A stretch of DNA of 63,087 nucleotides, taken from contig DATGRI010000002.1 in assembly GCA_035303785.1 (NCBI GenBank), positions 1-63,087 on the forward strand, in the 5' to 3' direction. Both the position numbers and the translations under genes were made by a program. Under the pieces are notes generated by a model. That model saw nothing but the letters and a program-made list of their open reading frames with translations, was not told the DNA's origin and made no database searches. Source of the stretch: Sphingobacteriaceae bacterium. Its GTDB lineage: Bacteria; Bacillota; Sulfobacillia; Thermaerobacterales; RSA17. Of the stretch, positions 10,828-25,858 are shown in pieces. Within the stretch, counting starts at the first letter, position 1; each line of letters opens with the position of its first letter.

Positions 10828-12282
10828 TTATGGACGTTGAAAGCCGCTGCGCAGGGCGGATATGGCCGCCGCCACCACCGGATCCGCCGGGTCGGCGGCG
10901 GGGAGCACGCCCCGGGCCCGGTCTTCCACAGCCTTGTTCAAAGGCCCGATGACCGTCCCGTCCAGCCGCCCCGTGGGCGCCAGGCCGTGATCCCGCTGGA
11001 AGGCGGCCAAGGCGGCGGCGGTCCGGGCGTTGAAATGCCCGTCGGCTTCACCGCTATCATAGCCCAACCAGTTCAAGCGTTGCTGCAACCCCTGCACTTC
11101 CAGGCCCCGGTCGCCCCGGCGGAATTCCCATTGGCCCGTCAGGGGCGACATCTCGGGGATGGGCAAGGGATCGGCCTGGGGGACCGAAATGTCGGGCGTC
11201 AGCCCCGTGCCGGCGATGCGCTGGCGCAGGGGCGTCAAGTACTGGCCCGTGGTAAATTGTATCCCGCCGCCCCCGGGCAGGGGCAGCAGCCGCTGGATGG
11301 TCATCTTGCCGTAGGAGGGGGTCCCCACCAGGAAGCCCACATCGTTTTCCGCGATGGCGGCGGCCAGGATCTCGGCGGCGCTGGCGGTGCCCCTGTTGAT
11401 CAAGACGGCCACGGGCAGGGCTTCCCCGCCGCCGGCGGCATCATAGGTCCGCTGGGGCCCCCGGGCGATTTGCACGTGAGTGATGGGTCCCCCAGACAAG
11501 AATACATCGGCCGCCTGCAGGGCCTCGTTGAGCAGGCCGCCGGGGTTGTTGCGCAGGTCCAGCACGAAATACTTCACACCTTGGCGCACCATCTGCTGGT
11601 GGACCACCTCCAGGGCGGCCCCGACCCCGCTTTGGAATTCGATGATGCGGATGTAGCCCACATCGCCGTCCAGCACCTTGCTCTCGATGCCCGGGATGTG
11701 GATACGCTTCCTGGTCAAGGTCAAGGTGATGGTCTCCCGGCCGTCCCGCAGCAGTTCCAAGGTCACCTGGGTGCCCTCGGACCCCCGGATCAAACGGCCC
11801 ACCTGTGCCGGGGACATGCCGGCGGTGGACTGGCCGTCCACGGCGGTGATCACGTCGCCGGGGCGGATGCCCGCCTCCTCGGCCGGGGTGCCGGACAAGG
11901 GCGACACCACCACCACCTGGTCCCCTTCTCGATGGATGACGATGCCCACGCCGGTGATGAAGCCGTCCAACTCATCCCGGACGGACGTCAGCTCCTCGGG
12001 GGAAAGGTAGCGGGTGTAAGGATCCTCCAGGGCCTCCAGGGCGCCTTCCAAAGCCCCCTTCAGGAACAGGTCCAGGTCCACCGGCCGGTGGAATTGGGAC
12101 TGGAGGATGAAGTAGACGTCCTTCAGCAGCTGCCAGGGATCCTCTTCTTGTTCCTGGGCCTGCAGGGATAAGGGCGAGATCAAGACCAATAGGACAGCCA
12201 AAATTAAGACCGATGCCGCAACACCGGCCAGGTAGGCCCGGGACTTGCCGGACCCGTCACCGCGGGGCTTGAAAAAAGGCAC
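10828..12282 (-). CDS. ctpA: S41 C-terminal processing protease with PDZ and peptidoglycan-binding domains
   Basis: A 484-residue exported protease. The N-terminal hydrophobic segment (about residues 18-40) is a signal anchor. The PDZ domain includes TGVGIVIHREGDQ and PAEEAGIRPGDVITAVDG. The S41 core has YIRIIEFQSG, LDLRNNPGGLLNEAL, the catalytic Ser in INRGTASAAEILA and the catalytic Lys in GTPSYGKMTIQ (usual YGKG is YGKM here). A PG_binding_1 domain follows (DRGLEVQGLQQRLNWLGYDSGEADG). In spore formers such CtpA/CtpB proteases act on extracytoplasmic proteins, CtpB cleaving SpoIVFA. Start GTG 12282, five bases after GGAGGG. Confidence 0.9.
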   Translation of the reverse strand: MPFFKPRGDGSGKSRAYLAGVAASVLILAVLLVLISPLSLQAQEQEEDPWQLLKDVYFILQSQFHRPVDLDLFLKGALEGALEALEDPYTRYLSPEELTSVRDELDGFITGVGIVIHREGDQVVVVSPLSGTPAEEAGIRPGDVITAVDGQSTAGMSPAQVGRLIRGSEGTQVTLELLRDGRETITLTLTRKRIHIPGIESKVLDGDVGYIRIIEFQSGVGAALEVVHQQMVRQGVKYFVLDLRNNPGGLLNEALQAADVFLSGGPITHVQIARGPQRTYDAAGGGEALPVAVLINRGTASAAEILAAAIAENDVGFLVGTPSYGKMTIQRLLPLPGGGGIQFTTGQYLTPLRQRIAGTGLTPDISVPQADPLPIPEMSPLTGQWEFRRGDRGLEVQGLQQRLNWLGYDSGEADGHFNARTAAALAAFQRDHGLAPTGRLDGTVIGPLNKAVEDRARGVLPAADPADPVVAAAISALRSGFQRP

Positions 12283-12334: not shown

Positions 12335-13552
12335 TCAGCCCCTGAAACCTTCCGACTCGGCAGGGCCTATTCCTGCCACCGGGGGCTGCCCGGCGCCCAC
12401 GGCGGCCAGGTGACCGGCGGCCACGCCCGCCGCTGCGGCAGCCAGGAAAAAGGCGGGGTCGTCATACACGGTGCGCCCCATGGTCTCGGCCGCCGGCAGC
12501 CATTCCCGCAGGCGGGCCACGGCGGCGGCGCCGTCCACCGTCACGGGGAAGTGCTTCTCCAGGAGGCCCCCTTCCTCCAGAGCTGACCAGAGGACGGCCT
12601 CTTCATGGGGCTGCAGGCGGGGCAAGGGCAGCAGGCACGGCCGGGCCGCCAGGGACAATACCGTCAAGGTGTGATGGCTCACACCCCGATGGCGGGAGCG
12701 TTCATCCCGGAAGCCGACCCGCAGGGCCAGCACCGGCCGGCCTTGGGCGGCGGCGGTCCCGTCGATCCAGGCGGCCTGCTCCACGGCGGTGGTGGCCAGG
12801 GGATGCCCGGTGCCCACGATGCCCGGACCCGGCATCACCAGGGCCGCGGCGGCGCCCAGGGCATGGCGGGCCGCCAGCAGGGCCGACAGGGGGTTGACCG
12901 CCTCATAGTCGCCCCCATAGGCGTGGCCGGCGGTGATGACGGCATCCAGCAGGCCTTGGGCGCGCAGGCGGTGGACCACCCGGCTGAAGCCGGCGGGCAG
13001 GGCCCCCGCATCGGTCATGACGTAGACGATGGGGGCCCGGTTCCCCAGCACAAGGCGCAGGCCGGCCACCGCCGGGGCCACTTGGCTGTGCAGGCCTCCG
13101 ATGACTACGGGCATGCCGTCCAGCCCGGTCCTGTCGGCCAAAAAGGCGCTGAAAGGGTGATCCGGCTCTTCCGCCGCCATTACCCGGCGCTGCAGGGGAG
13201 TGTAGCGCAGCTTCATGATGTGGCCCGCCCGGCGCCCGGGAAAGGGGGCCTGGGCCAGGATCCCTTCCCGGCCCGGCACCCAGGCGACAAAGTGAAAGCC
13301 GCCGGTGCCCAGTTCCAGCTCGGCGGCCGTCACGTTGAGTACTACCTGATCGCCGGGGGATAAGGCTCCCCACAGGGCCGTGTCGTGGAAGGCCTGCTCC
13401 TGCCGGGCAGGCCCGTCCCCCGTCCCGTCCCGGCGCACCGCCAGAACCTGCCATGGTCCCCGGCTTTCCAGGACGGCTTCCACCCGCGCCCGGGCGAAGC
13501 GCACCGGTGGCGGCGGGGGTGGCGGGGGCGAAGATGGTGGTTCACTAGGCAT
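12335..13552 (-). CDS. DUF3866 family protein
   Basis: About 405 residues from ATG 13552, which overlaps the end of the upstream gene by eight bases. After a short Pro-rich stretch come PGDQVVLNVTAAELELGTGGFHFV, RAGHIMKLRYTPLQRRVMAAEE, VMTDAGALPAGFSRVVHRLR, VITAGHAYGGDYEAVN, and the hallmark-like RHRGVSHHTLTVLSL. This matches what is known of DUF3866, a soluble protein of unknown function in Actinobacteria and Firmicutes. Repeated Gly-rich loops suggest a nucleotide or sugar-binding alpha/beta fold, which is inference. An earlier start at 13604 or 13655 in the same frame is possible. Confidence 0.7.
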   Translation of the reverse strand: MPSEPPSSPPPPPPPPVRFARARVEAVLESRGPWQVLAVRRDGTGDGPARQEQAFHDTALWGALSPGDQVVLNVTAAELELGTGGFHFVAWVPGREGILAQAPFPGRRAGHIMKLRYTPLQRRVMAAEEPDHPFSAFLADRTGLDGMPVVIGGLHSQVAPAVAGLRLVLGNRAPIVYVMTDAGALPAGFSRVVHRLRAQGLLDAVITAGHAYGGDYEAVNPLSALLAARHALGAAAALVMPGPGIVGTGHPLATTAVEQAAWIDGTAAAQGRPVLALRVGFRDERSRHRGVSHHTLTVLSLAARPCLLPLPRLQPHEEAVLWSALEEGGLLEKHFPVTVDGAAAVARLREWLPAAETMGRTVYDDPAFFLAAAAAGVAAGHLAAVGAGQPPVAGIGPAESEGFRG

Positions 13553-14336
13553 TGTTGTGGTTGGCCTGGGCAGCGGCCACGCCGGCGCCTTCCTCCTGGA
13601 CGGCATCCGCCTCCTGGACGGTGCCTGCTCCCCGGGAGGCGCGCCGCCGCACCCGGCCTTCCATGAGACGGTTGGTGCCGTGGAGGCAGGCGCGGACGAA
13701 GGCGGGCAAGGGATCACCGTCGGCCCGGACGCCGCCCACCAGCAGTTCTTCGCTGCCGTCGTCGGAGGCGAAGTTGATGAGCACCAAGGCGATGGGGTGG
13801 CCGGCCACGTGGAGGAGGCGGGTGTCCTCCAGCAGCAGCTGGTTGCCGGGGGAAATGGCCTGGTTCAAGGCTTCCACCGTGGCCGACGCCACCACCCGGT
13901 ACTGGTGCATACCGGTGTTGGGACCGCCGGCGGTGCCGGTGAAAGTCAGGTCGGGATCGGTGGGCGCGCCCAAGGTCACCTCCACCGACAAGCGGCCCCG
14001 CATGGCGTCGCTCTCCAGCTTGAGGGACGACAGCTTCAGGCGCATGGGCGGCAGGCGGGTGCCCCGGGCGCTCACCTGGGCTACGCTGATCTTCTTGTGA
14101 TCAACGTTGATGCCCCAGCGGGCCGCCAGGGAGCTTTCCACATCCCGGACGATCTGCTTGGCGCCCCGCTCGGTGGTGGCCAGGACGTGGACCTCTTCGA
14201 TGGCGCCCCAGTCGTTGACGATTACCCTGGCCGAAATTACCCCCGGGAGTTGACGTATGAGCTTCTCCACTTCCACCACATGCACGGCTTCGGGGGAAGA
14301 CGCTCCATCGTTCCGATTCTCAAGATCTTTAGCCAA
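13545..14336 (-). CDS. Unrecognised two-domain protein
   Basis: A 263-residue soluble protein starting at TTG 14336, eight bases after AGGAGG. Two blocks are visible. Block 1 (about residues 20-90) contains LPGVISARVIVNDWGAIEEVHVL and RGAKQIVRDVESSLAA, ending KKISVAQV. Block 2 (about 100-215) contains YRVVASATVEALNQAI, LLLEDTRLLHVAGHPIALVLI and VRADGDPLPAFVRACLHGTNRLM. The last 45 residues are low-complexity, rich in Arg, Ala and Gln. It has no membrane segment or catalytic motif that I can name. It lies between leucine dehydrogenase and DUF3866 on the same strand and is coupled to DUF3866 by overlap. Confidence 0.75.
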   Translation of the reverse strand: MAKDLENRNDGASSPEAVHVVEVEKLIRQLPGVISARVIVNDWGAIEEVHVLATTERGAKQIVRDVESSLAARWGINVDHKKISVAQVSARGTRLPPMRLKLSSLKLESDAMRGRLSVEVTLGAPTDPDLTFTGTAGGPNTGMHQYRVVASATVEALNQAISPGNQLLLEDTRLLHVAGHPIALVLINFASDDGSEELLVGGVRADGDPLPAFVRACLHGTNRLMEGRVRRRASRGAGTVQEADAVQEEGAGVAAAQANHNNA

Positions 14337-15503: not shown

Positions 15504-16454
15504 TTATGTAGACCCCCTCGCATCTTCCTTGCCGCTATTCGCGAGGCTTTTTTCTTTTCCTGCGGGCCCGGGCGTCTCATCGTGTCCCAAATTGTCAACG
15601 GCATGGAGGAAGGGCACCCGGGCAAAGGCTGCGGACCACGACCGGGTCTCCCCCAGCCACTGCAGGATCAGAAGGATAAGGACCACTGCCGCCAGGGCCG
15701 GGGGCTGCCGGGTCCAGAGCACGGCGGCCGCCGCCAGGCCCAAGGCGCCCCCCAAGGCGTTGGCGCCGCTGTCGCCCAGCATGACCCGGCGGGAAAAGTC
15801 CCACGGGGCATAGGCGGCGGTGGCGGCCAGCAGGGGCAGGAGGGCGCCGGCGGCCCAGGGGGCGGCTGCGCCGGCCATCAGCACCAGGAGGGAACCCAGC
15901 CAAAAGCCTTTCAGGGCGCGGCCCGGGCGCAGGTCCAGCAGGTTGACGGTGTTGGCCGCCAGGGCGGCCACCAGGGCGGCGGGCAGCAGCCAGGCCCGGG
16001 GCGCGCCCAGGAGGGCGGCGGCGGCCAGGGCGGCTGCGGTGGTGCCGGCGGCTTTGAACACGCCGGTGCTCCAGCGCCCCTGCCGGAGGCTGCGCCAGTG
16101 GCCCCGCCAGCCCCGGGGCCCGGCGCTCCCTGCCGCGTCGTCCAGCAGGCCCCACAGGGCCGCCGAGGTGAGGAGAAGCAGCACTGCCTGCATGGCGGGG
16201 AGCAGGCCCGGCCCGGTGCCTGCCGGCGGCCCGGGGCCTTCGACGGTTGCGGCAAGATGGGCGGCGATGCAGCCGGCCCCGTAGGCCAAGGGCAGCATGA
16301 CGCCCCCTGAAGCGGCCACCGGGCGGCCGGCGTAGTTGCGGGCGGACGGGCCGTAGAGGCGCTGGGAGCGCCACAGGAAGGGCATGACCAGGGCGGCGGC
16401 CGCCCAGGCGGCCATCACCGCCCACACCATGGGTGCCGTGGCTACAGTCTTCAC
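15504..16454 (-). CDS. MraY/WecA-like polyprenyl-phosphate glycosyltransferase family 4 membrane protein
   Basis: About 316 residues with roughly nine hydrophobic segments. Landmarks of the GT4 phosphoglycosyltransferase family are GRPVAASGGVMLPLAYG near the start (GGxxx loop), ALWGLLDDAAGS (DD motif), LAANTVNLLDLRPGRALKGF (NxxDxxxG-like) and RRVMLGDSGANALGGALG. Such enzymes transfer a sugar phosphate from a UDP-sugar to undecaprenyl phosphate. It starts at GTG 16454 in a GTGA overlap with the GT2 gene (ATG 16430 is an alternative) and follows steA-steB in the same run, suggesting an envelope glycan role. The sugar is unknown. Confidence 0.78.
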   Translation of the reverse strand: MKTVATAPMVWAVMAAWAAAALVMPFLWRSQRLYGPSARNYAGRPVAASGGVMLPLAYGAGCIAAHLAATVEGPGPPAGTGPGLLPAMQAVLLLLTSAALWGLLDDAAGSAGPRGWRGHWRSLRQGRWSTGVFKAAGTTAAALAAAALLGAPRAWLLPAALVAALAANTVNLLDLRPGRALKGFWLGSLLVLMAGAAAPWAAGALLPLLAATAAYAPWDFSRRVMLGDSGANALGGALGLAAAAVLWTRQPPALAAVVLILLILQWLGETRSWSAAFARVPFLHAVDNLGHDETPGPAGKEKSLANSGKEDARGST

Positions 16455-17167
16455 CTCCGCAGGGCCAGGAGGAGCAGGGTGATCCAGACGTGGGCCAGCT
16501 GCCGGGCCCGGTGGAGCAGGTGGCGCCAGGCGAAGCCGGTGACCCGGTGGGCAAAGGCGGTGTCCACTTCCCGGACGGCAAAGCCGGCCCGGAGCACCTG
16601 CAGGGACAGGGCCAGCTCCAAGCCGAAGCCCCAGCCCCACGTTCGCACCGCCGCCAGGGCGTCCCGCCGGAGGGCCCGCTGGCCCGACAAAGGCTGGTCC
16701 AGCCCGACGCCCGCCAGGCGCCGCAGGGCCCAGCGGGCGGTGCCCACCACCAGGCCGAAGCCGCCGCCCCGGCCGCTGGGGGGCAGCCGGCCTACGGTCA
16801 TGTCGGCCTCCCCGGCCAACACCGGCGCCAGCAGGGCTCCAGCGTGGGCGGCGCTGTCCCCCAGGTCGGCATCCAGCAGGAGGATCACCGGCGACCCGAC
16901 GGCTTCCAAGCCCCGGCGGACGGCGGCGGCCTTGCCCCGGCGGCGGGGCAGCCGCAGCACCCGGGCCCCGGCGCCGGCCGCCTCGGCGGCGGTGGCGTCG
17001 GTGGAGCCGTCATCCACCACCAGGATGTCCCCCACCTCGGGCACCGACCTTAGGGCCCGGACGGTGGCGCCGATGCGGCCGGCCTCGTTCCAGGCGGGGA
17101 TGACGGCCGTTGCCAAGGGCTGGTCCCCCTCCAGGGGAGACGGGGGGGCGCCGGCCTTCACCGTCAC
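16451..17167 (-). CDS. Family 2 glycosyltransferase, dolichyl-phosphate-sugar synthase-like
   Basis: About 238 residues. ATAVIPAWNEAGRIGATVRAL, ILVVDDGSTDATAAEAAGAGA and VILLLDADLGD give the GT-A nucleotide and metal site. GLDQPLSGQRALRRDAL and EVDTAFAHRVTGF are typical of GT2 enzymes that act on polyprenyl phosphates. A C-terminal hydrophobic stretch (LAHVWITLLLLALRR) may touch the membrane. The start is GTG 17167, in a GTGA overlap with the steB stop; the longer frame upstream is a shadow of steB. It pairs with the GT4 gene downstream, so the two probably build or transfer one lipid-linked sugar. Confidence 0.83.
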   Translation of the reverse strand: MTVKAGAPPSPLEGDQPLATAVIPAWNEAGRIGATVRALRSVPEVGDILVVDDGSTDATAAEAAGAGARVLRLPRRRGKAAAVRRGLEAVGSPVILLLDADLGDSAAHAGALLAPVLAGEADMTVGRLPPSGRGGGFGLVVGTARWALRRLAGVGLDQPLSGQRALRRDALAAVRTWGWGFGLELALSLQVLRAGFAVREVDTAFAHRVTGFAWRHLLHRARQLAHVWITLLLLALRR

Positions 17168-17913
17168 GGCAGGCCGGCCTCCATGAAGGGAGGGTCGTAG
17201 CCCGCCAGGCGCAGGACCAAGGCAATCCGCCCGGCGGCCCCTTCCACCCCCGGGACGACGGGGATGCCCAGCTCCCGCCACCGGTCGCCCAGGAGCCCTT
17301 CGTCCACCGGCCCCTGCTGGATGAAGGCCACCCCTTGCGGCTGCCGGGGCTCGCCCGATAAGGTGATCCAGCCTGCCAGCGCCCAGCGGGCCAGCCGTTC
17401 CCCGTCGCCGGCCAGGACGGCGTCCAGGAGGCCGCCGGGCAGCACCGGCCCCGGGCCGCCGCTGCCGTCCCCTTCCCCCGAGCCCAAGGGGCCCATTGGG
17501 CCGCCCGCCGGGGCGGCGGGCAGGTGCAGCCACCAAACGTGGCCGGCGCCGGCCCAAGCCAGGAGCCGCTCCACCTCATCGGCCCAAGGGGCATCGGGCC
17601 GGTCCCCTTCGCCGGCCACCAGCAGGGCTACCGTCGCCCCCGTCAAGCGCCCTTCCACCGCCAGGGGCGCCAGGGTTTCCAGCAGGCGGTCCATGGCGGC
17701 CCGCTCCTCCTCCAGGGCCGACAACTCCTCCCGGTAGGCCCGGGCCTGGCTCCGGAGGGAGTGGAATTCCTGTTCCAAGGCATTCAAAAGGGCCTGCTGC
17801 TGCTCCAGCCACAGGCGGTCGCCCGGCAGGGCCGTGCCGATGAGCACGCCCAGCCCCAAGGCCAGAAAGACAGCGGCCAATACGATGGCCAGGGAGCGGG
17901 GCCCCAAGGGCAC
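17164..17913 (-). CDS. steB: SteB-like / MctB-family copper transporter domain protein
   Basis: About 249 residues. One N-terminal membrane segment (SLAIVLAAVFLALGLGVLIG) is followed by a coiled coil (LLNALEQEFHSLRSQARAYREELSALEEERAAMDRLLETL) and an extracytoplasmic alpha/beta domain with VALLVAGEG and PGVEGAAGRIALVLRLAG. This is the MctB (PF11382, copper transporter) architecture. In Corynebacterium SteB partners SteA to activate a cell-wall hydrolase at division. It follows steA directly. The start is GTG 17913, placed nine bases after GGGGAGG; TTG 17931 is possible but has no ribosome site. The copper name is historical and unsupported here. Confidence 0.78.
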   Translation of the reverse strand: MPLGPRSLAIVLAAVFLALGLGVLIGTALPGDRLWLEQQQALLNALEQEFHSLRSQARAYREELSALEEERAAMDRLLETLAPLAVEGRLTGATVALLVAGEGDRPDAPWADEVERLLAWAGAGHVWWLHLPAAPAGGPMGPLGSGEGDGSGGPGPVLPGGLLDAVLAGDGERLARWALAGWITLSGEPRQPQGVAFIQQGPVDEGLLGDRWRELGIPVVPGVEGAAGRIALVLRLAGYDPPFMEAGLP

Positions 17914-17934
17914 CGGCTGCCACCTCCCCAAAGG

Positions 17935-19134
17935 TTAAAGGCCCAAGGCCAGGCGCAGGCGCAGCCACGCCGCCTTGACCAGGCCCCGGGCCCAAGGGGC
18001 CGCCATTAAGATGGAACCGGCGCTGGCCAGGGCGGCGGCCAGCAGCCAGGGGACGTACCGGGCCTGGTCCTGGCCGTCGTACAGCTTGCTCACCCCTTTG
18101 GCGTCCACCAGCCGGCCCCCCAGCTTGAGACGGGTCAAAAGGGTGCTGGCCATGCCGGCCCTGCCCTTGTCCAAAAAGTCCACGGCGTGGGTGTGGGTGC
18201 CCACCGCCACGATGAGGCGGGCTCCCGCCTCGGCTGCCAGGAGCAGGGCCGCATCCTCGCTGGTGCCCGGGGCGGGAAAGACATGGCCGGGGAGCCCCAG
18301 CCGCCGGAGCCGCTCCCGGCCGGGGGCGCGGCCCCCCGGGTAGGCGTGGACCACCAGTTCGGCCCCGCAGCCCAGGGCGGCGTCGCTGACGCTGTCCATG
18401 TCGCCGATGATCAAATGGGGGCTCTGCCCTGCCGCCAGCAGGGCGTCGGCGGCGCCGTCCACCGCCACCAGCACCGGGCGGGCGTCCCGGATGTAGTTGT
18501 CCAGCATGCGCAGGTCCTCTTTGTAGCCGGGCCCCCTGACCACCACCAGCACATGGCGGTCCCGGATGGAGGTCTGGAGGGGCGGCAGGGGGATGGGGCC
18601 CAGAAACAAATCCTTTTCCCGCCGGGCGTAGGCCAAGGTGTTCTCCAAAAAGCGCTCCAATTGGCCGGGCAGGGTGCGGCGGGCTGCCTGCAGCTTTTGG
18701 CCGATGGCTTCCGGGGTCAGCACCTGGCCCCGGGCCAGGAGGCGGCCCCGGTGGTGGACGGCGCCTGTTTCCAGATCCACCACGATGGCATCCCCGTCCC
18801 GGAGGCGGGTGAACACGGCGGGGTCCACCTGGTCTACCACGGGCACCCCGGCCTGGACCAGCAGGGCCGCCCCTTGGGCGGGGTAGCGGCCCGACAGGCT
18901 GGCCCGGGTGTTGAGCACGCAGCGCACACCCGCCTGCAGCAGGGCTTCCGCCGCCAGCTGATCCAAGTCACAGTGGTCGATGACGGCGATCTCCCCCGGC
19001 TGCAGCCGGGCCGCCAACACTTTGGTGACCTTGCCCAAGCGGGCCCGGCCTTGCACCGCCCGGCCGTGAACCCGGCGGCGGGCGCCGGCGCCCATCTCCT
19101 TCAGCCGCCCGGCGGCGGTTATGGACCGGAACAT
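17935..19134 (-). CDS. steA: SteA-like putative cytokinetic ring protein
   Basis: About 399 residues. The N-half has GEIAVIDHCDLDQLAAEALLQAGVRCVLN and LVQAGVPVVDQV. The central part resembles thiamin pyrophosphokinase: DRHVLVVVRGPGYKEDLRML, SPHLIIGDMDSVSDAAL (GDxDS motif) and HAYPGGRAPGRERL, then GTSEDAALLLAAEAGARLIVAVGTHTHAVDFLDKGRAGMASTLLTRLKLG. A C-terminal hydrophobic helix follows (LLAAALASAGSILMA). This is the SteA architecture; Corynebacterium SteA localises to the septum with SteB and activates RipA. The start is ATG 19134, because AGGGAG lies six bases upstream. It follows spoIIP in the spo0A gene run. Confidence 0.82.
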   Translation of the reverse strand: MFRSITAAGRLKEMGAGARRRVHGRAVQGRARLGKVTKVLAARLQPGEIAVIDHCDLDQLAAEALLQAGVRCVLNTRASLSGRYPAQGAALLVQAGVPVVDQVDPAVFTRLRDGDAIVVDLETGAVHHRGRLLARGQVLTPEAIGQKLQAARRTLPGQLERFLENTLAYARREKDLFLGPIPLPPLQTSIRDRHVLVVVRGPGYKEDLRMLDNYIRDARPVLVAVDGAADALLAAGQSPHLIIGDMDSVSDAALGCGAELVVHAYPGGRAPGRERLRRLGLPGHVFPAPGTSEDAALLLAAEAGARLIVAVGTHTHAVDFLDKGRAGMASTLLTRLKLGGRLVDAKGVSKLYDGQDQARYVPWLLAAALASAGSILMAAPWARGLVKAAWLRLRLALGL

Positions 19135-19192
19135 GGCCACTCCCTGCCTAGCCCCCTTCCCGCGCCCTTAGTATGGTTGCCGGGGGCCGGGT

Positions 19193-20290
19193 CTATGGCC
19201 TGGCTTCAACGGTGCGCCAGAAGACGTAGGCGGCGCCGCCCAGAAGGGTCAGGCCCAGCAGGGCGGCCAGGGTCCTGCCCACCGCCTCCTCGGACCCGGG
19301 GAGCCCCCGGTAGGCCACCTGGGGCGAGCCCTGGGCCACGGGGCCGAAAAAGTAGAAGGCCACCGCCTCGGCAAAGAGGGTGACGGCCCGCTCGGCTTCG
19401 GCCCGGCTGTTGGTGTGGGCGCCCACCTCGATGAGCAGGTTGAATGGGCTCAAATCCTGATTGAAGTTGCCGTTCAAGAAGAGCACGCCGCCGATGAGGC
19501 CGGGGTGGACCTTGTCCACCACCCCCTTCAGGCTGAGGGCGTAGCGGCGGTTGACGGCGAACTGGGGGTTCTGCCGGCCCACCACGATGGCGATCTTGGT
19601 GACGTCCATCCCGGCCACCTGGGCCCGGTACACCTCCGGCGGCGTGGCGTCCCGGTGGACGTCGAAAATGGCGGTGGGCTCCCGCCGCAGCAGGTTCACG
19701 GCGGTGACCCGGCTGCGGCTGTAGGCTTCATCGTCGTGGGGCAGGTGGAGGGTTTCATCGTGGATGACGGCCACCCCCGCCTTTTCCAAGGCCCGGGCGA
19801 AGGCCTTGCCCACCCGGTGGATGTCCCCCGCCCCTTCGGTGCTGTGGGTCCCCGTGTCGGGCACATAGGACTCCCCGTTGTGGGTGTGGTAGATGCCCAC
19901 CAGCCCCTTGGGCGGGTCCTTTTCCCCGGGACCCGGCCGGTCAGGCTCGTCGCGGCGCAGCCGGCCGGGGAAGATGCGCCAGCCGGGGAGCCGGATGCGG
20001 CCGATGGGCCGCAGGATGATGCGGCTGCCGGTGACCTGGGCCACGGTGAACAGGCGGTTCTCGCCATCCAAAAACTCATCCCCCACCTGCCACTCCCGGG
20101 CGGAGTGAAACAGCACATTGCCCCGGTCATCCACCACGGCCCGATAGGCGGAAGTTTCCGCCCCAGGGGTGGCGGCGGCCGCGGCATGAGGTGAGGCGGC
20201 ATGACCCGTTGCCGGCAGGGACGGGACCAGCAGGGCCAATCCCAACAGCAAGCAGCCCCGTTGGGCCGCCCGCACCACCGGACCCATCAT
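19193..20290 (-). CDS. spoIIP: Stage II sporulation protein P, cell-wall hydrolase
   Basis: About 365 residues with an N-terminal signal anchor and a C-terminal membrane segment (LAALLGLTLLGGAAYVFW). The zinc amidase signatures are clear: GIYHTHNGESYVP, AIFDVHRDATPPEVY, IAIVVGRQNPQ, and NGNFNQDLSPFNLLIEVGAHTN (catalytic Glu). SpoIIP is the amidase/endopeptidase that, with SpoIID and SpoIIM, thins septal peptidoglycan so that the mother cell can engulf the forespore. The start is ATG 20290, in an ATGA overlap with the upstream DUF1614-like gene; the open frame beyond it is a shadow. It sits between spo0A and steA. Confidence 0.93.
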   Translation of the reverse strand: MMGPVVRAAQRGCLLLGLALLVPSLPATGHAASPHAAAAATPGAETSAYRAVVDDRGNVLFHSAREWQVGDEFLDGENRLFTVAQVTGSRIILRPIGRIRLPGWRIFPGRLRRDEPDRPGPGEKDPPKGLVGIYHTHNGESYVPDTGTHSTEGAGDIHRVGKAFARALEKAGVAVIHDETLHLPHDDEAYSRSRVTAVNLLRREPTAIFDVHRDATPPEVYRAQVAGMDVTKIAIVVGRQNPQFAVNRRYALSLKGVVDKVHPGLIGGVLFLNGNFNQDLSPFNLLIEVGAHTNSRAEAERAVTLFAEAVAFYFFGPVAQGSPQVAYRGLPGSEEAVGRTLAALLGLTLLGGAAYVFWRTVEARP

Positions 20291-20886
20291 CGGGCCTTCA
20301 ACCGCTCCCGCACCTCGCCCACGGCTTCCGCCAGCAGCACCGCCACCACCCCGGCCACCACCACGGCATCCAGGGCCCCGGCGCCGCCGATGTCCACCGG
20401 GCCCCCGGGCCGGCCGGCCCAAGCCCGGCGCAGGGGCTGCAATCCTTGGTGGGCCACGGCGCCCAGGACGCCCGCTATGAAGGCGGCCCGCCGGGAGCGG
20501 CCCAATAAGTAGGCGATGGCGCCGGCGATGATGCCCCACCGCCACAAAGGGTCGATGCCCAGGGGAAAGACGTCGGGGTCAAGGGGGCTGAGCAGGGAGA
20601 GGCCGGTGACGGCGGCCAGGGTGCCCAGGGCGGCCAGGAGCGACCGGGCCTTTTCCCGGGCCGTGCCGGCGGCCCACCACAAATAAAGGGAGATGGCCGT
20701 GGGCACCACCGCCCCCGCCCAGTGGATGCGCCAGCCCGATAGGAAGGCCAGGGGCGGCAGCCGGTGGGCGATCAAAGCCCCGCCCACCAGGGCGGCAGCC
20801 GCCGCCGCGGAAAAGCGCAGGGCCAGCAAGGCCCGCCATCCCAGCAAGGCGTAGACCAAGCCGCCCAGGGCAGACCAAGGGAACAC
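20287..20886 (-). CDS. DUF1614-like integral membrane protein
   Basis: A 199-residue protein with about six hydrophobic helices, for example LLALRFSAAAAAALVGGALIA, WRWGIIAGAIAYLLG and LDAVVVAGVVAVLLAEAV. The stretch PVDIGGAGALDAVVVAG resembles the GGAGxxD motif of DUF1614 proteins, often found in spore-forming Clostridia. Function unknown. It starts at GTG 20886, 70 bases downstream of spo0A, and is coupled to spoIIP by an ATGA overlap, which suggests a link to sporulation. The family call is from memory of the motif. Confidence 0.65.
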   Translation of the reverse strand: MFPWSALGGLVYALLGWRALLALRFSAAAAAALVGGALIAHRLPPLAFLSGWRIHWAGAVVPTAISLYLWWAAGTAREKARSLLAALGTLAAVTGLSLLSPLDPDVFPLGIDPLWRWGIIAGAIAYLLGRSRRAAFIAGVLGAVAHQGLQPLRRAWAGRPGGPVDIGGAGALDAVVVAGVVAVLLAEAVGEVRERLKAR

Positions 20887-20956: not shown

Positions 20957-21739
20957 TTAGGCGCCCCGGCGGAGGCCCAGTCGCAGCTTGTCGGCCACCA
21001 GGGCGATGAACTCGGAATTGGTGGGCTTGCCCCGATGGAAGCTGTGGGCGGGCCCGAACACCCGGCGGATGGCTTCCAGGTTGCCCCGGGTCCAGGCCAC
21101 CTCGATGGCGTGGCGGATGGCCCGCTCCACACGGGGCGCCGTGGTGTCGCACCGTTCCCCGATGGCGGGGTACAGTTCCTTGGTTACGGCCCCCAGGTAA
21201 TCGGGACGCTGCATCACCAGGCTGATGCCCGTCCGCAGGTAGGTGTACCCCCGGATGTGGGGCGGGATGCCGATTTCCTGGAACAGGGACGTGATGGCGT
21301 AGATGGCGTTGTTTTCGTGGGGAGCCGGCTGGCGCACCACCGGCGCCTTGCTGCCGGCCACCTCCCGGATGCGGTCGGCCATGACGTTGAGATCGAAGGG
21401 CTTCAGGAGGAAATACACAGCGCCCAATTGGGCTACCCGCCGGCTGACCGATTCCTGGCCGAAAGCCGTCATGGCGATGATGGGCGGCCGCCGGTCCTGG
21501 AGGGATGACAGGCGCTCCATGACGGCGATGCCGTCCAGGTGGGGCATGATCAAGTCCAGCAGGAGCACATCGGGCGGCTCCGTCGACAGCATCTCCAGCA
21601 AATCGGAGCCGTTGTGGGCGATGCCCATGAGGTTTATGTCGTCCAGGCCGCTCATGTATTCCGCCAGCATGTTGCAAAGTTGGTGGTTGTCGTCGGCCAA
21701 CAATACGTTGATGGGCTTGTAGTCCTGGGTTGCCGCCAT
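20957..21739 (-). CDS. spo0A: Sporulation master response regulator Spo0A
   Basis: A 260-residue protein. The receiver domain has the acidic pair D16/D17 (LLADDN), the phosphorylation Asp at about 62 ([12 protein letters not shown]), T91 (AMTAFG) and K113 (LLKPFD). The C-terminal Spo0A DNA-binding domain contains [53 protein letters not shown] and [20 protein letters not shown], nearly diagnostic of the family. Phosphorylated Spo0A switches cells into sporulation. Start ATG 21739 after AGGGGG. A perfect 0A box lies about 110 bases upstream, so autoregulation is likely. It follows spoIVB, the usual order. Confidence 0.98.
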
Positions 21740-22113: not shown

Positions 22114-23439
22114 TCAGGCGGCCTCCGAAGACGGAGCGGGCAGCCGCTCCAGCAGGCCCGAATGAAGCACCATCCAGTGGGCCAGCACCCCGTAGCCCCG
22201 GGTAGGGTCGTTGACGAAGACATGGGTCACGGCCCCGGCCAGGCGGCCGTTCTGCAGGATGGGGCTGCCGCTCATGCCTTGGACGATTCCGCCGGTGGCC
22301 GCCAGCAGGCGGTCGTCGGTGATACGCAGGACCAGGTTCTTGCCCCCCGGCCGCAGGCTGATGATGCGCTCGATTTCCACGCTGAAGCGCTGCAGCTTGT
22401 CTCCTTCGATGACGGTGATGATCTCGGCGGGCCCCGTCTCCACCTGGGAAGCCAGGGCCACCCTGACGGTCTCCGGCCCGGGCCCCGGCGGCAGGGGCCG
22501 GGTAAGACGGCCGAAGATGCCGTATTCGGTGTTCCGCTGCACCGTCCCCAAAGTCGGGCCGGAGAAGCGGCCCACCTTCTCCCCCGGCCGTCCCTCCTGG
22601 CCCTTTTCGATGCTGAGGACCGCCGCCTCTACGATCTGGCCTTGATCCACGTCCACGGGGTTCCGGCTGTCGGGCCCGGTGATGAGATGACCCAAGGCGC
22701 CGTACACGCCGGACCCCGGATGATAAAAGGTCAAGGTGCCCACGCCGGCGGCGGAGTCCCGGATCCAGACCCCCATTAGCCACCGGCGCTGGTCGGGGTT
22801 GTACACCGGGTTGATTTCGATGCGCTCCACCTCATCGCCCCGGCGCACCGCCAGCACCACCGGCCGCCCCAGCCGGCCCTGCCGGTCCACCAGTTCGGCT
22901 ACCTGCTGGACCGATGAAACTTCCCGGCCGTTGATGGAAATAATCAAATCGTTGACCATCAAGCCGGCGTCCCGGGCCGGGTGATAGGTGCGGCCCCGGC
23001 CGTCCACCACCGGCGCGTGGCCCACTACGGCCACCCCGTCTTCTTTCAAAAGAACGCCGATGGAGTGGCCGCCGGGCACCACCTGGATGGGCGGCAGCAC
23101 GTCCACCGTCACCCGCCGGAAGGGAACGACGCCCAGCAGGCGGGTTTCCAGGGCGAACTCCCCCACCGCCAGGGGCTCGATGGCCATGGACGAGGCCGAG
23201 ACCGTGGACCAGCCTGTTTGCAGCAGGCTGCCGTTGATCCGCAGCACGCCGGAGCGGTCGGCGCGGACTTGGAGCTTGAGGGGTATTCCCCAGTTGAGAC
23301 GGGCTTCTTCCCCATCGTTGATGGCGATGTAGTCGGGGAAGGTGAGCACCGCCTGGGCAGCCGCCACGAGAACCACCCAGGCTGCAATGGCAATGATAAC
23401 CACCGGCCTTGCCCGCCGGTGTCGGACCATGGCATCCAC
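22114..23439 (-). CDS. spoIVB: SpoIVB serine peptidase
   Basis: A 441-residue protein with an N-terminal membrane anchor (VVIIAIAAWVVLVAAAQAVL). A PDZ domain covers about 145-220 (DAGLMVNDLIISINGREVSSVQQV) and the S55 peptidase domain follows, with GALGHLITGPDS (catalytic His) and GIVQGMSGSPILQNGRLAGAVTHV (catalytic Ser). SpoIVB is secreted from the forespore and cleaves SpoIVFA to trigger sigma-K activation. Start ATG 23439 after AGGGAG. It lies between recN and spo0A as in Bacillus. Bacillus spoIVB is controlled by sigma-F/sigma-G; no such promoter was convincing in the 110-base gap upstream. Confidence 0.96.
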   Translation of the reverse strand: MDAMVRHRRARPVVIIAIAAWVVLVAAAQAVLTFPDYIAINDGEEARLNWGIPLKLQVRADRSGVLRINGSLLQTGWSTVSASSMAIEPLAVGEFALETRLLGVVPFRRVTVDVLPPIQVVPGGHSIGVLLKEDGVAVVGHAPVVDGRGRTYHPARDAGLMVNDLIISINGREVSSVQQVAELVDRQGRLGRPVVLAVRRGDEVERIEINPVYNPDQRRWLMGVWIRDSAAGVGTLTFYHPGSGVYGALGHLITGPDSRNPVDVDQGQIVEAAVLSIEKGQEGRPGEKVGRFSGPTLGTVQRNTEYGIFGRLTRPLPPGPGPETVRVALASQVETGPAEIITVIEGDKLQRFSVEIERIISLRPGGKNLVLRITDDRLLAATGGIVQGMSGSPILQNGRLAGAVTHVFVNDPTRGYGVLAHWMVLHSGLLERLPAPSSEAA

Positions 23440-23549: not shown

Positions 23550-25289
23550 TCAGGAGAGGGAGTCGGCCCGCGCCCGCTCCAGCAGTTCCCGGGCATGGGC
23601 CAGGGCGGCTTCATGGGTGTCGCCGCCCAGCATGCGGGCCAGTTCGTGCCGGCGCTCTTCCTCCTCCAGGAGGACGACGCGGGTTACGGTGCGACCGCCG
23701 GCATCCTGCTTGCTGACGGTGAAGTGGCGGTGGGCGGCAGCGGCGATAACGGGCAGGTGGGTGACGCATAATACTTGCTGCCGGCGGGCGATGGCCGCCA
23801 GCTTGTCGGCCACGGCCACGGCGGTGCGGCCCCCGACGCCGCTGTCGATTTCGTCGAAAACGACGGTGGGCACATCGTTGGCCTGGGCCATCAGGCTCTT
23901 CAAGGCCAGCATAATGCGGGACAACTCGCCCCCCGAGGCCGTTTGGGCCAAAGGCCGCAAGGGCTCGCCGGGGTTGGTGCTGATGAGGAACTCCACCTCA
24001 TCCACGCCGCCGGCGTCCACGGCCGCCGGGCCCCCTTCCCAGGGCACGCCGTCGGGATCTTCCCGCCAGGCAAAGCCCACCGAGAAGGTGGCCCCAGCCA
24101 TGCCCAATTCGGCCAAGGACGAGGCCAGGAGGGGCTCCAGCCGGGCAGCTCCTTGACGGCGCAGATCGCTGACCTGCCGGGACAGGGCGGCCAGTTCCCG
24201 GCGGCCGTCTTCCAACTGCTGCTGCAGCTTCTCCATGGCCTCTTCGGCGCCGGCCAGGCGGTCCAGTTCGGCGGCCACCCGGTCCCGGTAGGCCAGGATT
24301 TCCTCCACGGAGCCGCCGTACTTCTTCTTCAGGTCGCCGATGAGCATCAGCCGCTCTTCCACGGCGGCCAGCTCCGCGGGGTCGGCCTGCACCTCATCAA
24401 AGCGCTGCCGCAGGTGCCGGGCCACGCCGGCCAGTTCCTCCTGGGCGGCGTACAAAGTCTCCAGCAGGGGCGCCACCTGGGGATCCCACTGGGCCACGGC
24501 TTCCAGCTGGGCGATGGCGCCCCCCACGGCGTCGTGGGCGCCGGCCCCCTCCCTGCCGTCCCCGGCCAGCAGTTCATAGGCGCCCAGGAGGGCTTCCCCC
24601 ACCCGGGCGGCATTCTGCAGGAGCCGGCGGCGGGCCCGCAGTTCTTCTTCCTCGTCGGGAGCCAAGGCGGCGGCATCAATCTCATCCCGCTGAAACCGGT
24701 ACAAGTCCATGGTGCGCAGCCGCTGGGCGGGATCGCCGGCCAGATCCGCCATCTGCCGGCGCAAATCTTGAAACCGGCGGTATGCGGCCTGCAGCTGCTC
24801 CAGGGCCCGGGCCCCTGCGGCACCCAGGGAAGTCTTGATGAATTCGTCCAGGAAGGCCCGGTGGGAGCGGGGCGACAGGAGGCGCTGGTGCTGGTGCTGG
24901 CCGTGGATGTCCAGGAGGGGTGCCGCCGCCTCCCGCAGCTGGCCTACGGTGACGGGGCGGCCGTTGATGCGGGCGGTGCTGCGGCCTTCCGCCGTGATTT
25001 CCCGGCCCAACTGCACCTGCCCGTCCCCCACATCGATGCCCATGGCTGCCAGTTCCTGCAGGCACCAAGGAGCATCGGCCAGGTCGAAGAGGCCGGTGAT
25101 GACCGCCCGCCGGGCGCCGGCCCTTACCATGCCGGCGGCGGCCCGGCCGCCCAAGAGCAACTGGACGGCGTCGATGATGATGGACTTGCCCGTGCCCGTT
25201 TCCCCGGTAAGGACGTTGAGACCGCCGGAGAAGCTCAATTCCAGGCGGTCGATGATGGCGAAGTCTTCGATGTACAGTTCCCGCAGCAT
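23550..25289 (-). CDS. recN: DNA repair ATPase RecN
   Basis: A 579-residue SMC-like protein. The N-terminus is MLRELYIEDFAIIDRLELSF with Walker A LTGETGTGKSIIIDAV. A long coiled-coil middle follows (LEQLQAAYRRFQDLRRQMADL and VEERLMLIGDLKKKYGGSVEEILAYRDRV). The C-terminal ABC signature is TASGGELSRIMLALK and Walker B is TVVFDEIDSGVGG. RecN acts early in double-strand break repair. Start ATG 25289, eight bases after GGAGG. It sits between argR and spoIVB, a classic Firmicute order. No LexA box was seen in the short gap upstream. Confidence 0.97.
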   Translation of the reverse strand: MLRELYIEDFAIIDRLELSFSGGLNVLTGETGTGKSIIIDAVQLLLGGRAAAGMVRAGARRAVITGLFDLADAPWCLQELAAMGIDVGDGQVQLGREITAEGRSTARINGRPVTVGQLREAAAPLLDIHGQHQHQRLLSPRSHRAFLDEFIKTSLGAAGARALEQLQAAYRRFQDLRRQMADLAGDPAQRLRTMDLYRFQRDEIDAAALAPDEEEELRARRRLLQNAARVGEALLGAYELLAGDGREGAGAHDAVGGAIAQLEAVAQWDPQVAPLLETLYAAQEELAGVARHLRQRFDEVQADPAELAAVEERLMLIGDLKKKYGGSVEEILAYRDRVAAELDRLAGAEEAMEKLQQQLEDGRRELAALSRQVSDLRRQGAARLEPLLASSLAELGMAGATFSVGFAWREDPDGVPWEGGPAAVDAGGVDEVEFLISTNPGEPLRPLAQTASGGELSRIMLALKSLMAQANDVPTVVFDEIDSGVGGRTAVAVADKLAAIARRQQVLCVTHLPVIAAAAHRHFTVSKQDAGGRTVTRVVLLEEEERRHELARMLGGDTHEAALAHARELLERARADSLS

Positions 25290-25315: not shown

Positions 25316-25768
25316 TCAGCCCGTCAACTCCTGGAGACGGCGGATGACCTCCGGCACCGCCTCCCGGGGACGCACCACGATCAAGACGGTGTTGTCGCCG
25401 GCCACGCTGCCGATGATCTGGGGCCAGCCCATGCGGTCGATGGCCTCGGCGGCGGCGGGGGCGGTGCCCGACAAAGTCTTGATGACGATCAAATTCTCGC
25501 TGAAGTCGATGTCCACCAGGCAGTCCCGCAGCACCCGGGCCAGGCGCTCGCGGGTGTGGGCAGGGGAGGCGTCCTCGGGAACGGCATACTGGTAGCCGCC
25601 GTCGGGCGACGGCACCTTCACCAGCTGCAGTTCCCGGATGTCCCGGGAAACGGTGGCCTGGGTCACCTGCACCCCTTCCCGCTGGAGGGCTTGGGCCAGT
25701 TCCTCCTGGGTGCCGATGGGCGTTTCCCGGATAATTTGCAGTATCAGCCGGTGCCGGCGGCTCTTCAG
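25316..25768 (-). CDS. argR: Arginine repressor ArgR/AhrC, probable CTG start
   Basis: About 150 residues when started at CTG 25768, which lies eight bases after a perfect AGGAGG. This gives the family N-terminus KSRRHRLILQIIRETPIGTQEEL and the usual ArgR length. GTG 25777 overlaps the ribosome site, and a TTG start at 25849 would place 27 codons across a strong hairpin. The winged helix includes TQATVSRDIRELQLVKVP. The C-terminal arginine-binding hexamer domain has VDIDFSENLIVIKTLSGTA and GSVAGDNTVLIVVRPREAVPEV (GDxT). It represses arginine synthesis genes. It precedes recN, as in other Firmicutes. Confidence 0.92.
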   Translation of the reverse strand: MKSRRHRLILQIIRETPIGTQEELAQALQREGVQVTQATVSRDIRELQLVKVPSPDGGYQYAVPEDASPAHTRERLARVLRDCLVDIDFSENLIVIKTLSGTAPAAAEAIDRMGWPQIIGSVAGDNTVLIVVRPREAVPEVIRRLQELTG

Positions 25769-25800
25769 TCGCTCCACCTCCTGCCCAGCCAGCGGGATGG

Positions 25801-25829
25801 CCCGTGGGCCGGGATGCCCGGCCCACGGG
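25801..25829. terminator. Strong hairpin between icd and argR
   Basis: CCCGTGGGCCGGG (25801-25813) pairs perfectly with CCCGGCCCACGGG (25817-25829) around a three-base loop, a 13-base stem. It lies 30 bases past the icd stop. No T-run follows on either strand, so it may be a processing or attenuating hairpin rather than a classical terminator. Confidence 0.55.
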
Positions 25830-25858
25830 AGCCTAGGGGTTGTCTGCAAGCCCGGCCT

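Follow-up and report, generated by a model that had tools for sequence, protein, structure and literature searches.

The closest described system is SteA-SteB-RipA of Mycobacteriales (Lim 2019, PMC6705760; Carloni 2026, PMC12977500), which shares with the locus analyzed here the protein families, the adjacency of steA and steB, and the recN neighborhood. Septal location, hydrolase binding, and UDP/GDP binding are known for such relatives only. According to the sections of PMC12977500 covered in this study, UDP and GDP stabilize CgSteA, ethambutol tolerance is restored by SteA alone, indicating a SteB-independent role, and steAB form the end of the operon in C. glutamicum. One sentence of this paper already describes steAB of Bacillota downstream of spo0A, together with a suggested sporulation role, and speaks of a restricted subset, whereas we found SteA in 101 of 149 sampled genomes. 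Its main text does not use the word 'glycosyltransferase', and the sections covered make no mention of retention in non-sporulating bacteria. This paper was also the only result of a literature search for SteA with Spo0A and sporulation. A search for SteA/SteB in C. difficile returned only two papers, both on Salmonella, and no literature was found for C. difficile locus tags, for SteA/SteB with a glycosyltransferase and the divisome, or in searches around MctB, MraY, recN, glycosyltransferase, and Spo0A.

The window, i.e. the whole stretch of 63,087 nucleotides analyzed in this study, carries on its minus strand the gene order argR-recN-spoIVB-spo0A-DUF1614-spoIIP-steA-steB-GT2-GT4, and all genes named in a preliminary description of this DNA were present where it had placed them. 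Above the respective cut-offs, we identified argR (25316..25849; TIGR01529), recN (23550..25289; TIGR00634, 555.8 bits), which is a neighbor also in Actinobacteria, spoIVB (22114..23439; TIGR02860, 420 bits), spo0A (20957..21739; TIGR02875, 319.8 bits), a gene for a DUF1614 membrane protein (20287..20886; PF07758, 8.7e-10), and spoIIP (19193..20290; TIGR02867, 165.6 bits, cut-off 123). Compared to Mycobacteriales, spoIVB-spo0A and locally also DUF1614-spoIIP are thus located between recN and steA, and steB is followed by GT2-GT4 instead of being the last gene as in C. glutamicum. From spo0A through GT4, neighboring genes overlap or are separated by 3–70 bp. Consensus scans detected no terminator-like sites in the gaps between spo0A and GT4, those found on the minus strand being intragenic, and no promoter in the window.

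The steA gene (minus strand, 17935..19140 with GTG at 19140, or 17935..19134 with ATG at 19134) encodes a full-length match to the curated model NF040608 (467.5 bits, cut-off 150; positions 1–367 of 369). The C-terminal SteA domain PF12555 was matched above cut-off, and the SteA profile aligned to the solved SteA structure 9hmy with an E-value of 3.1e-98. The motifs DG(G/A)ADAL, GDMDS, and GTSED were conserved to at least 89% across 178 sequences. SteA is predicted to be a cytosolic TPPK-like protein with a putative nucleotide pocket, a dimer core, and a C-terminal membrane helix. The protein encoded by steB (minus strand, 17164..17931 with TTG at 17931, or 17164..17913 with GTG at 17913) matched PF11382 (1.1e-19) and, by profile, the M. 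tuberculosis SteB structure (PDB 9m9z; E 2.8e-24). Its AlphaFold2 model (pLDDT 82) shows helices 11–34 and 38–92 followed by an alpha/beta part, and all six significant Foldseek matches were SteB chains (E 4e-7 to 7e-5). According to the model, SteB has one N-terminal transmembrane helix, a long coiled-coil helix, and an extracytoplasmic alpha/beta domain. Translation may start at GTG 17913 rather than at TTG 17931, since a better ribosome-binding site precedes GTG 17913. The SteA/SteB identities proposed in the preliminary description therefore hold on the basis of curated models, structure profiles, and the SteB fold.

GT2 (minus strand, 16451..17167; PF00535, 8.7e-21) is a glycosyltransferase of the polyprenyl-phosphate hexose transferase type. 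Its start codon, GTG at 17167 or 17161, overlaps the 3' end of steB or directly adjoins it; its scores were below cut-off for every NCBIfam subfamily model. GT4 (minus strand, 15504..16454; PF00953, 7.9e-8) is a phosphoglycosyltransferase with the MraY/DPAGT1 fold. With MraY, DPAGT1, and TagO (PF00953) it has in common this fold and the Asp-Asp, NxxNxxD, and GDxG motifs. The DD, NxxNxxD, and GDxG motifs are invariant in SteA-linked GT4, and residues D105, D106, D174, and D228 are conserved at 1.0 (n = 163 sequences). In MraY, the catalytic residues are Asp-Asp and a third Asp in GDxG. The AlphaFold2 model of GT4 (pLDDT 87.7) reached a Z-score of 21.9 over 250 residues against MraY, and GT4 has a PNPT-type polytopic fold with the catalytic Asp-Asp and the third Asp. 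Entries below Z 8 in the list of structural matches were other membrane proteins. GT4 differs from the known enzymes by a signature of its own, NxxNLxDLRPGRAxK (NLLDLRPGRAxK compared to NLTDGLDGLA in MraY), by a PF00953 score much weaker than that of the MraY/TagO type, and by its co-inheritance with SteA. In a tree, 44 SteA-linked GT4 sequences and 19 other PF00953 sequences, which judged by size and score are presumably of the MraY/TagO type, fell on opposite sides of one branch with support of 100. GT4 as MraY or TagO proper was rejected due to this separate clade. Most likely, GT4 transfers a sugar-phosphate from a UDP-sugar onto polyprenyl phosphate, and GT2 probably extends or re-charges the resulting lipid-linked sugar.

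In the phylum sample of 149 genomes, GT4 was located downstream of steA in all 97 loci whose downstream sequence reached 2.6 kb or more, and GT2 in 93 of them. Genome-wide, the GT4 subfamily (score of at least 145 bits) was present in 99 of 101 genomes with SteA versus 1 of 48 without, and the three mismatches (G097, G126, G116) were all situated at contig ends. SteB was found in 99 of the 101 SteA-containing genomes; among those lacking SteA there were only two weak matches (1e-4, 9e-4). Adjacent SteB was missing at 19 loci, one of which (G088) was an ORF-overlap artefact. An assumed loss of SteB where GT2 directly follows steA was mostly wrong, as SteB was encoded elsewhere in 16 of the remaining 18 genomes; in two (G006, G078) no SteB was found anywhere in the genome. 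SteA and GT4 changed together in all seven independent pairs on a RecN tree (p 0.016), and SteA and SteB in six of seven (p 0.031). In Actinobacteria, recN is directly upstream of steA (37 of 38 loci), and GT4 is likewise present at the steA locus (37 of 39). We judged two genes further downstream to lie outside the core module: DUF3866 (20 of 29 named Bacillota-type loci, none of 36 actinobacterial loci) and NUDIX (14 of 29 and 13 of 36, respectively). A plasmid search gave a single weak actinobacterial match. An envelope role common to SteAB and the glycosyltransferases, as suggested earlier, is the strongest link of all. Coinheritance alone does not equal interaction, and operon hitch-hiking could account for the retention of GT4.

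The family of Peptostreptococcus canis includes relatives without sporulation genes. Among its 65 genomes, SteA was present in all, Spo0A above cut-off in 52, and SpoIIP in 49. In all 16 genomes without SpoIIP the steA-steB-GT2-GT4 block was intact. Twelve of these also lack Spo0A yet contain SteA, and in nine of the 12 recN abuts the intact block; in two SpoIIP-less genomes a Spo0A remnant without receiver domain lies beside intact steA. Since SteA is kept in relatives without sporulation genes, it is not restricted to sporulation, and steA as a sporulation-dedicated gene was rejected. From the idea that SteAB help to control septal wall hydrolysis during division or engulfment, the part on ordinary division fits these data, while a function specific for sporulation or engulfment does not agree with the block being kept in the 16 SpoIIP-less genomes.

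We consider it likely, with a probability of roughly 60%, that steA-steB-GT2-GT4 is a general module for cell division and cell separation, in which SteAB are combined with a lipid-linked-sugar enzyme, and not a sporulation device. We infer a coupling of GT4 to SteA by the following mechanism. SteA in the cytosol, with its nucleotide-diphosphate pocket, and SteB outside, with its coiled coil, would form a transmembrane regulator, which by homology may direct a hydrolase of the wall to the septum. In the SteAB-RipA system this partner is an autoinhibited NlpC/P60 protein with a coiled coil, to which the SteB loop binds. As third regular member, GT4 would make a lipid-linked sugar with a UDP-sugar as donor, which GT2 would lengthen or re-charge. 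SteA could read the state of this pathway via the nucleotide donor or the product and, via SteB, would free septal hydrolysis only while envelope synthesis keeps step. A bolder version, which we put forward tentatively and give somewhat less than even odds, is that SteA is the regulatory or sensing subunit of a new polyprenyl-phosphate phosphoglycosyltransferase family, so that its oldest and closest partner would be GT4 rather than a hydrolase. The GT4 family, kept with SteA across Bacillota and Actinobacteria, would then be wired by SteAB to the septum, i.e. synthesis of a lipid-linked envelope glycan would license septal wall splitting, and Mycobacteriales, in which SteAB were discovered, would be the exception where the enzyme was lost or moved. 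If true, this partnership might also explain what SteA does independently of SteB.

Conserved linkage of spo0A and steA, for which a synteny survey had been named as check, was confirmed: among 92 SteA loci of the phylum sample with enough upstream sequence, 82 had spo0A upstream and in the same orientation, and in 70 the distance was no more than 500 bp. Explaining this linkage purely as a relic of the recN neighborhood is not fully supported, because spo0A adjoins steA in at least 12 genomes with recN on a separate contig (e.g. G018, G060, G012, G106), and some link of SteA to Spo0A is conceivable. SteAB might be a vegetative division regulator used also at the sporulation septum, with expression tied to the spo0A transcript. 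This persistent adjacency, the tight spacing, and the lack of terminator-like sites in the window are in favor of such a dual use; however, spoIVB-spo0A is inverted relative to steA in three genomes (G010, G119, G145), making a shared spo0A-steA transcript impossible there, and 31 SpoIIP-containing genomes of the phylum sample lack SteA, and we regard dual use as unlikely. The spo0A neighborhood represents a stable arrangement of genes surrounding recN-steA-steB-GT4, which is the older order.

Less probable still, and rather doubtful, is that SteAB in spore formers are a sporulation factor controlling how the wall is hydrolyzed, either at the sporulation septum or during engulfment by SpoIID/SpoIIP. 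Besides the linkage to spo0A, the raw phylum counts, with SteA in 0 of 17 SpoIIP-less versus 101 of 132 SpoIIP-containing genomes, by themselves favor a sporulation link, and three genomes with Spo0A and without SpoIIP (G022, G076, G099) likewise lack SteA. However, this association was not significant on the RecN tree (163 rows), where SteA and SpoIIP changed together in about 4 (4.2) of only eight independent pairs (median p 0.125), and both the operon kept in the P. canis family and the 31 genomes with SpoIIP and without SteA argue against such a factor. The earlier claim of a SpoIIP link to SteAB failed: of 92 loci, only that of the window had spoIIP, counted with a model built from the window sequence alone, next to steA. 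DUF1614 was likewise a neighbor in 1 of 92. The link was rejected as local, the spoIIP-DUF1614 insertion being peculiar to this lineage. Finally, that SteA of Bacillota feeds a kinase acting on Spo0A and reports the septal state to the phosphorelay, by analogy to mycobacterial SteA (TapA), for which the parts covered of PMC12338722 report activation of the sensor kinase MtrB and those of PMC12977500 mention an MtrAB interaction, would fit the adjacency to spo0A, but is highly improbable with SteA being kept in 12 genomes lacking SpoIIP and Spo0A.

Because a sugar-lipid enzyme and SteA are inherited together in two phyla, the search for the cytosolic signal of SteA narrows to a testable pathway. 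Linkage to spo0A alone does not make a sporulation system, and the published guess is corrected, since SteAB are kept by relatives that lost sporulation genes. The co-inheritance of SteA and GT4 also points to model organisms besides pathogens for studying cell separation.

On the minus strand of the window, argR, recN, spoIVB, spo0A, a gene for a DUF1614 membrane protein, spoIIP, steA, steB and the glycosyltransferase genes GT2 (PF00535) and GT4 (PF00953) follow one another. This order and the identity of SteA and SteB given in the preliminary description were borne out by model scores, structure profiles and fold. Window SteA reached 467.5 bits against the curated SteA model (cut-off 150), and SteB matched the MctB/SteB family model at 1.1e-19. 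Profiles of SteA and SteB relatives matched the solved structures 9hmy (3.1e-98) and 9m9z (2.8e-24), respectively, and all six significant Foldseek matches of the SteB model (pLDDT 82) were SteB of M. tuberculosis and C. glutamicum. Both C. glutamicum proteins are located at the division site and promote cell separation via RipC-FtsEX (PMC6705760), and Carloni et al. 2026 solved both structures, demonstrated SteB-RipA binding, reported stabilisation of CgSteA by UDP and GDP, and described a SteB-independent role, namely the restoration of ethambutol tolerance in C. glutamicum by SteA alone (PMC12977500). One sentence of the latter paper places steAB immediately downstream of spo0A in a restricted subset of Bacillota and suggests a possible sporulation role; in the open library searched, SteA, Spo0A and sporulation were found together only there. 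Since this linkage and suggestion are already in print, the core of the earlier idea is not new.

For the analysis of conservation, a single sampled set of 149 genomes of the phylum of the window (Bacillota, at least 90% completeness) was used, 101 of which had SteA over the cut-off. The loci examined were 100 fetched steA loci and the window; upstream counts omit nine loci with less than 1.5 kb upstream (n = 92). A same-strand spo0A was located upstream of steA in 82 of the 92 loci, in 70 of them at a distance of at most 500 bp, and the proposed spo0A-steA linkage is thus conserved. The link between spoIIP and steA is not: with models built from the window sequence alone, spoIIP or DUF1614 was detected near steA in 1/92 loci, the window itself, and four genomes from the window's taxonomic order that carry steA (G008, G051, G088, G143) showed no match to either beside it. 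spoIIP has come to lie beside steA through a local event. Spo0A may share expression with the steA block in spore formers. At three loci (L185, L243 and L261 of genomes G119, G010 and G145), spoIVB-spo0A is inverted relative to recN and steA, which is a natural break of any transcript shared with steA. Two Spo0A paralogues, one of them adjoining steA, occur in several families (G018, G023, G060, G097, G106, G126, and others). At locus L295, steA comes immediately after spoIVB, and the spo0A that elsewhere separates them is missing; this genome (G037) has SpoIIP, and no Spo0A was found at E 1e-40.

Taken alone, the raw phylum counts (SteA in 101/132 genomes with SpoIIP vs. 0/17 without) perhaps hint at a sporulation link. 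As a control for kinship, a one-gene RecN tree with 163 rows was used, comprising 148 of the 149 phylum genomes (one lacked RecN) and 15 Peptostreptococcaceae. Among the independent pairs differing in SpoIIP (n = 8, thus few), SteA changed in the same direction in 4.2, did not differ in 3.8 and never changed in the opposite direction, with a median p of 0.125 for co-change. On the tree the raw association is not significant, and the family of Peptostreptococcus canis (locus L083) runs directly counter to the suggested sporulation role. In 65 genomes of this family, for which a completeness threshold of 90 was requested and figures were not given, SteA was present in all, SpoIIP in 49 and Spo0A over the cut-off in 52. 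SpoIIP was absent in 16 genomes, 12 of which also lacked Spo0A, and all 16 (15 fetched loci and L083) kept SteA with SteB, GT2 and GT4 behind it. Since such genomes keep steA-steB-GT2-GT4, SteAB outlives sporulation. Nine of these loci (L083 and the eight fetched loci G194-G201) have lost spoIVB-spo0A, and the distance from the recN end to steA is -9 to 36 bp. G188 and G190 retain a receiver-less Spo0A remnant (27-33% identity over about 120 residues), with recN on one side and an intact steA on the other. Two genomes that lack both SpoIIP and full-length Spo0A encode diverged C-terminal domains of Spo0A (L303:5290-5766 and L305:5262-5729) with no receiver; these may be relics in decay, or they may have been repurposed as a DNA-binding protein.

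The constant gene downstream of steA is GT4. It was found in all 97 loci that remained after omission of four of the 101 with less than 2.6 kb downstream, GT2 in 93 (absent in G034, G074, G107 and G136), and SteB directly after steA in 78, with G088 wrongly counted as missing through an overlapping ORF. Apart from G088, SteB was not adjacent in 18 operons; 16 of the genomes concerned have SteB elsewhere, so that in these it was moved, not lost. Whole-genome searches of the 149 genomes with alignments of SteA-linked GT4 and SteB gave GT4 matches of at least 145 bits in 99/101 genomes with SteA vs. 1/48 without, all other matches listed being at most 73 bits; the exceptions to this pattern (G097, G126, G116) lie at contig ends. 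SteB was detected in 99/101 genomes with SteA and in none without, except for two matches of 1e-4 and 9e-4. On the RecN tree, SteA and GT4 changed together in 7/7 independent pairs (p 0.016; the three exceptions set as unknown) and SteA and SteB in 6/7 (p 0.031).

A few genes below GT4, the window encodes a DUF3866 protein (12335-13717, minus strand). DUF3866 was found downstream of steA in 20/29 named Bacillota-type loci vs. 0/36 actinobacterial ones, for example at L190:7804-8877, L204:7114-8265, L317:9877-10941 and L310:9448-10512, the last in a SpoIIP-less genome. Window positions 10828-12282 (minus strand), 10 kb from spoIVB, encode an S41 peptidase that combines a CtpB-like N-terminal domain, a PDZ domain and a peptidoglycan-binding domain; in B. 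subtilis, CtpB and SpoIVB belong to the same pathway.

In 163 length-filtered GT4 sequences, D105, D106, H119, N168, N171, D174, P177, G227 and D228 (window numbering) are invariant and K182 is conserved at 0.98. The GT4 profile matched MraY in the PDB (9.2e-10); the Asp-Asp pair and the GDxG motifs align, whereas MraY has NLTDGLDGLA at the place of NLLDLRPGRA in SteA-linked GT4. The AlphaFold2 model (pLDDT 87.7, pTM 0.86) resembled MraY 9zno (Z 21.9, 3.9 A over 250 residues) and human DPAGT1 6bw5 (Z 21.7), with the next fold well below at Z 6.4. In a tree built by a quick method, in which the window row is long, one branch with support 100 split 44 SteA-linked rows (window, and 28 Bacillota-type and 15 actinobacterial rows, randomly drawn) from 19 other PF00953 rows of ten genomes, six SteA-linked places having been kept out of the latter. 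SteA-linked GT4 is a separate phosphoglycosyltransferase subfamily, and it is probably catalytically active.

Among the best 80 of 322 relatives, 42 were counted as Actinobacteria and 38 as others by name, and loci with less than 2.5 kb on the side concerned were omitted. In Actinobacteria, recN lies directly upstream of steA in 37/38 loci, and SteB (35/39) and GT4 (37/39) are common, with GT2 in 0/39 and spo0A in 0/38. The others have GT4 in 34/35 and spo0A in 31/34. The sole GT4 exception among them, L065 (labelled Thermoanaerobacterales; GT4 8.8 kb downstream), may be an actinobacterium because recN adjoins steA and SpoIIP is lacking. The oldest common order is recN-steA-steB-GT4, inside which Bacillota have spoIVB-spo0A. 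By homology, SteA and SteB would form a transmembrane septal complex placing a hydrolase. The co-inheritance and gene order of SteA and GT4 are observed here, and we infer a coupling step between them, in which GT4, a co-inherited enzyme of UDP-sugar/polyprenyl-phosphate type, would be a natural source of a UDP/GDP-type signal to SteA.
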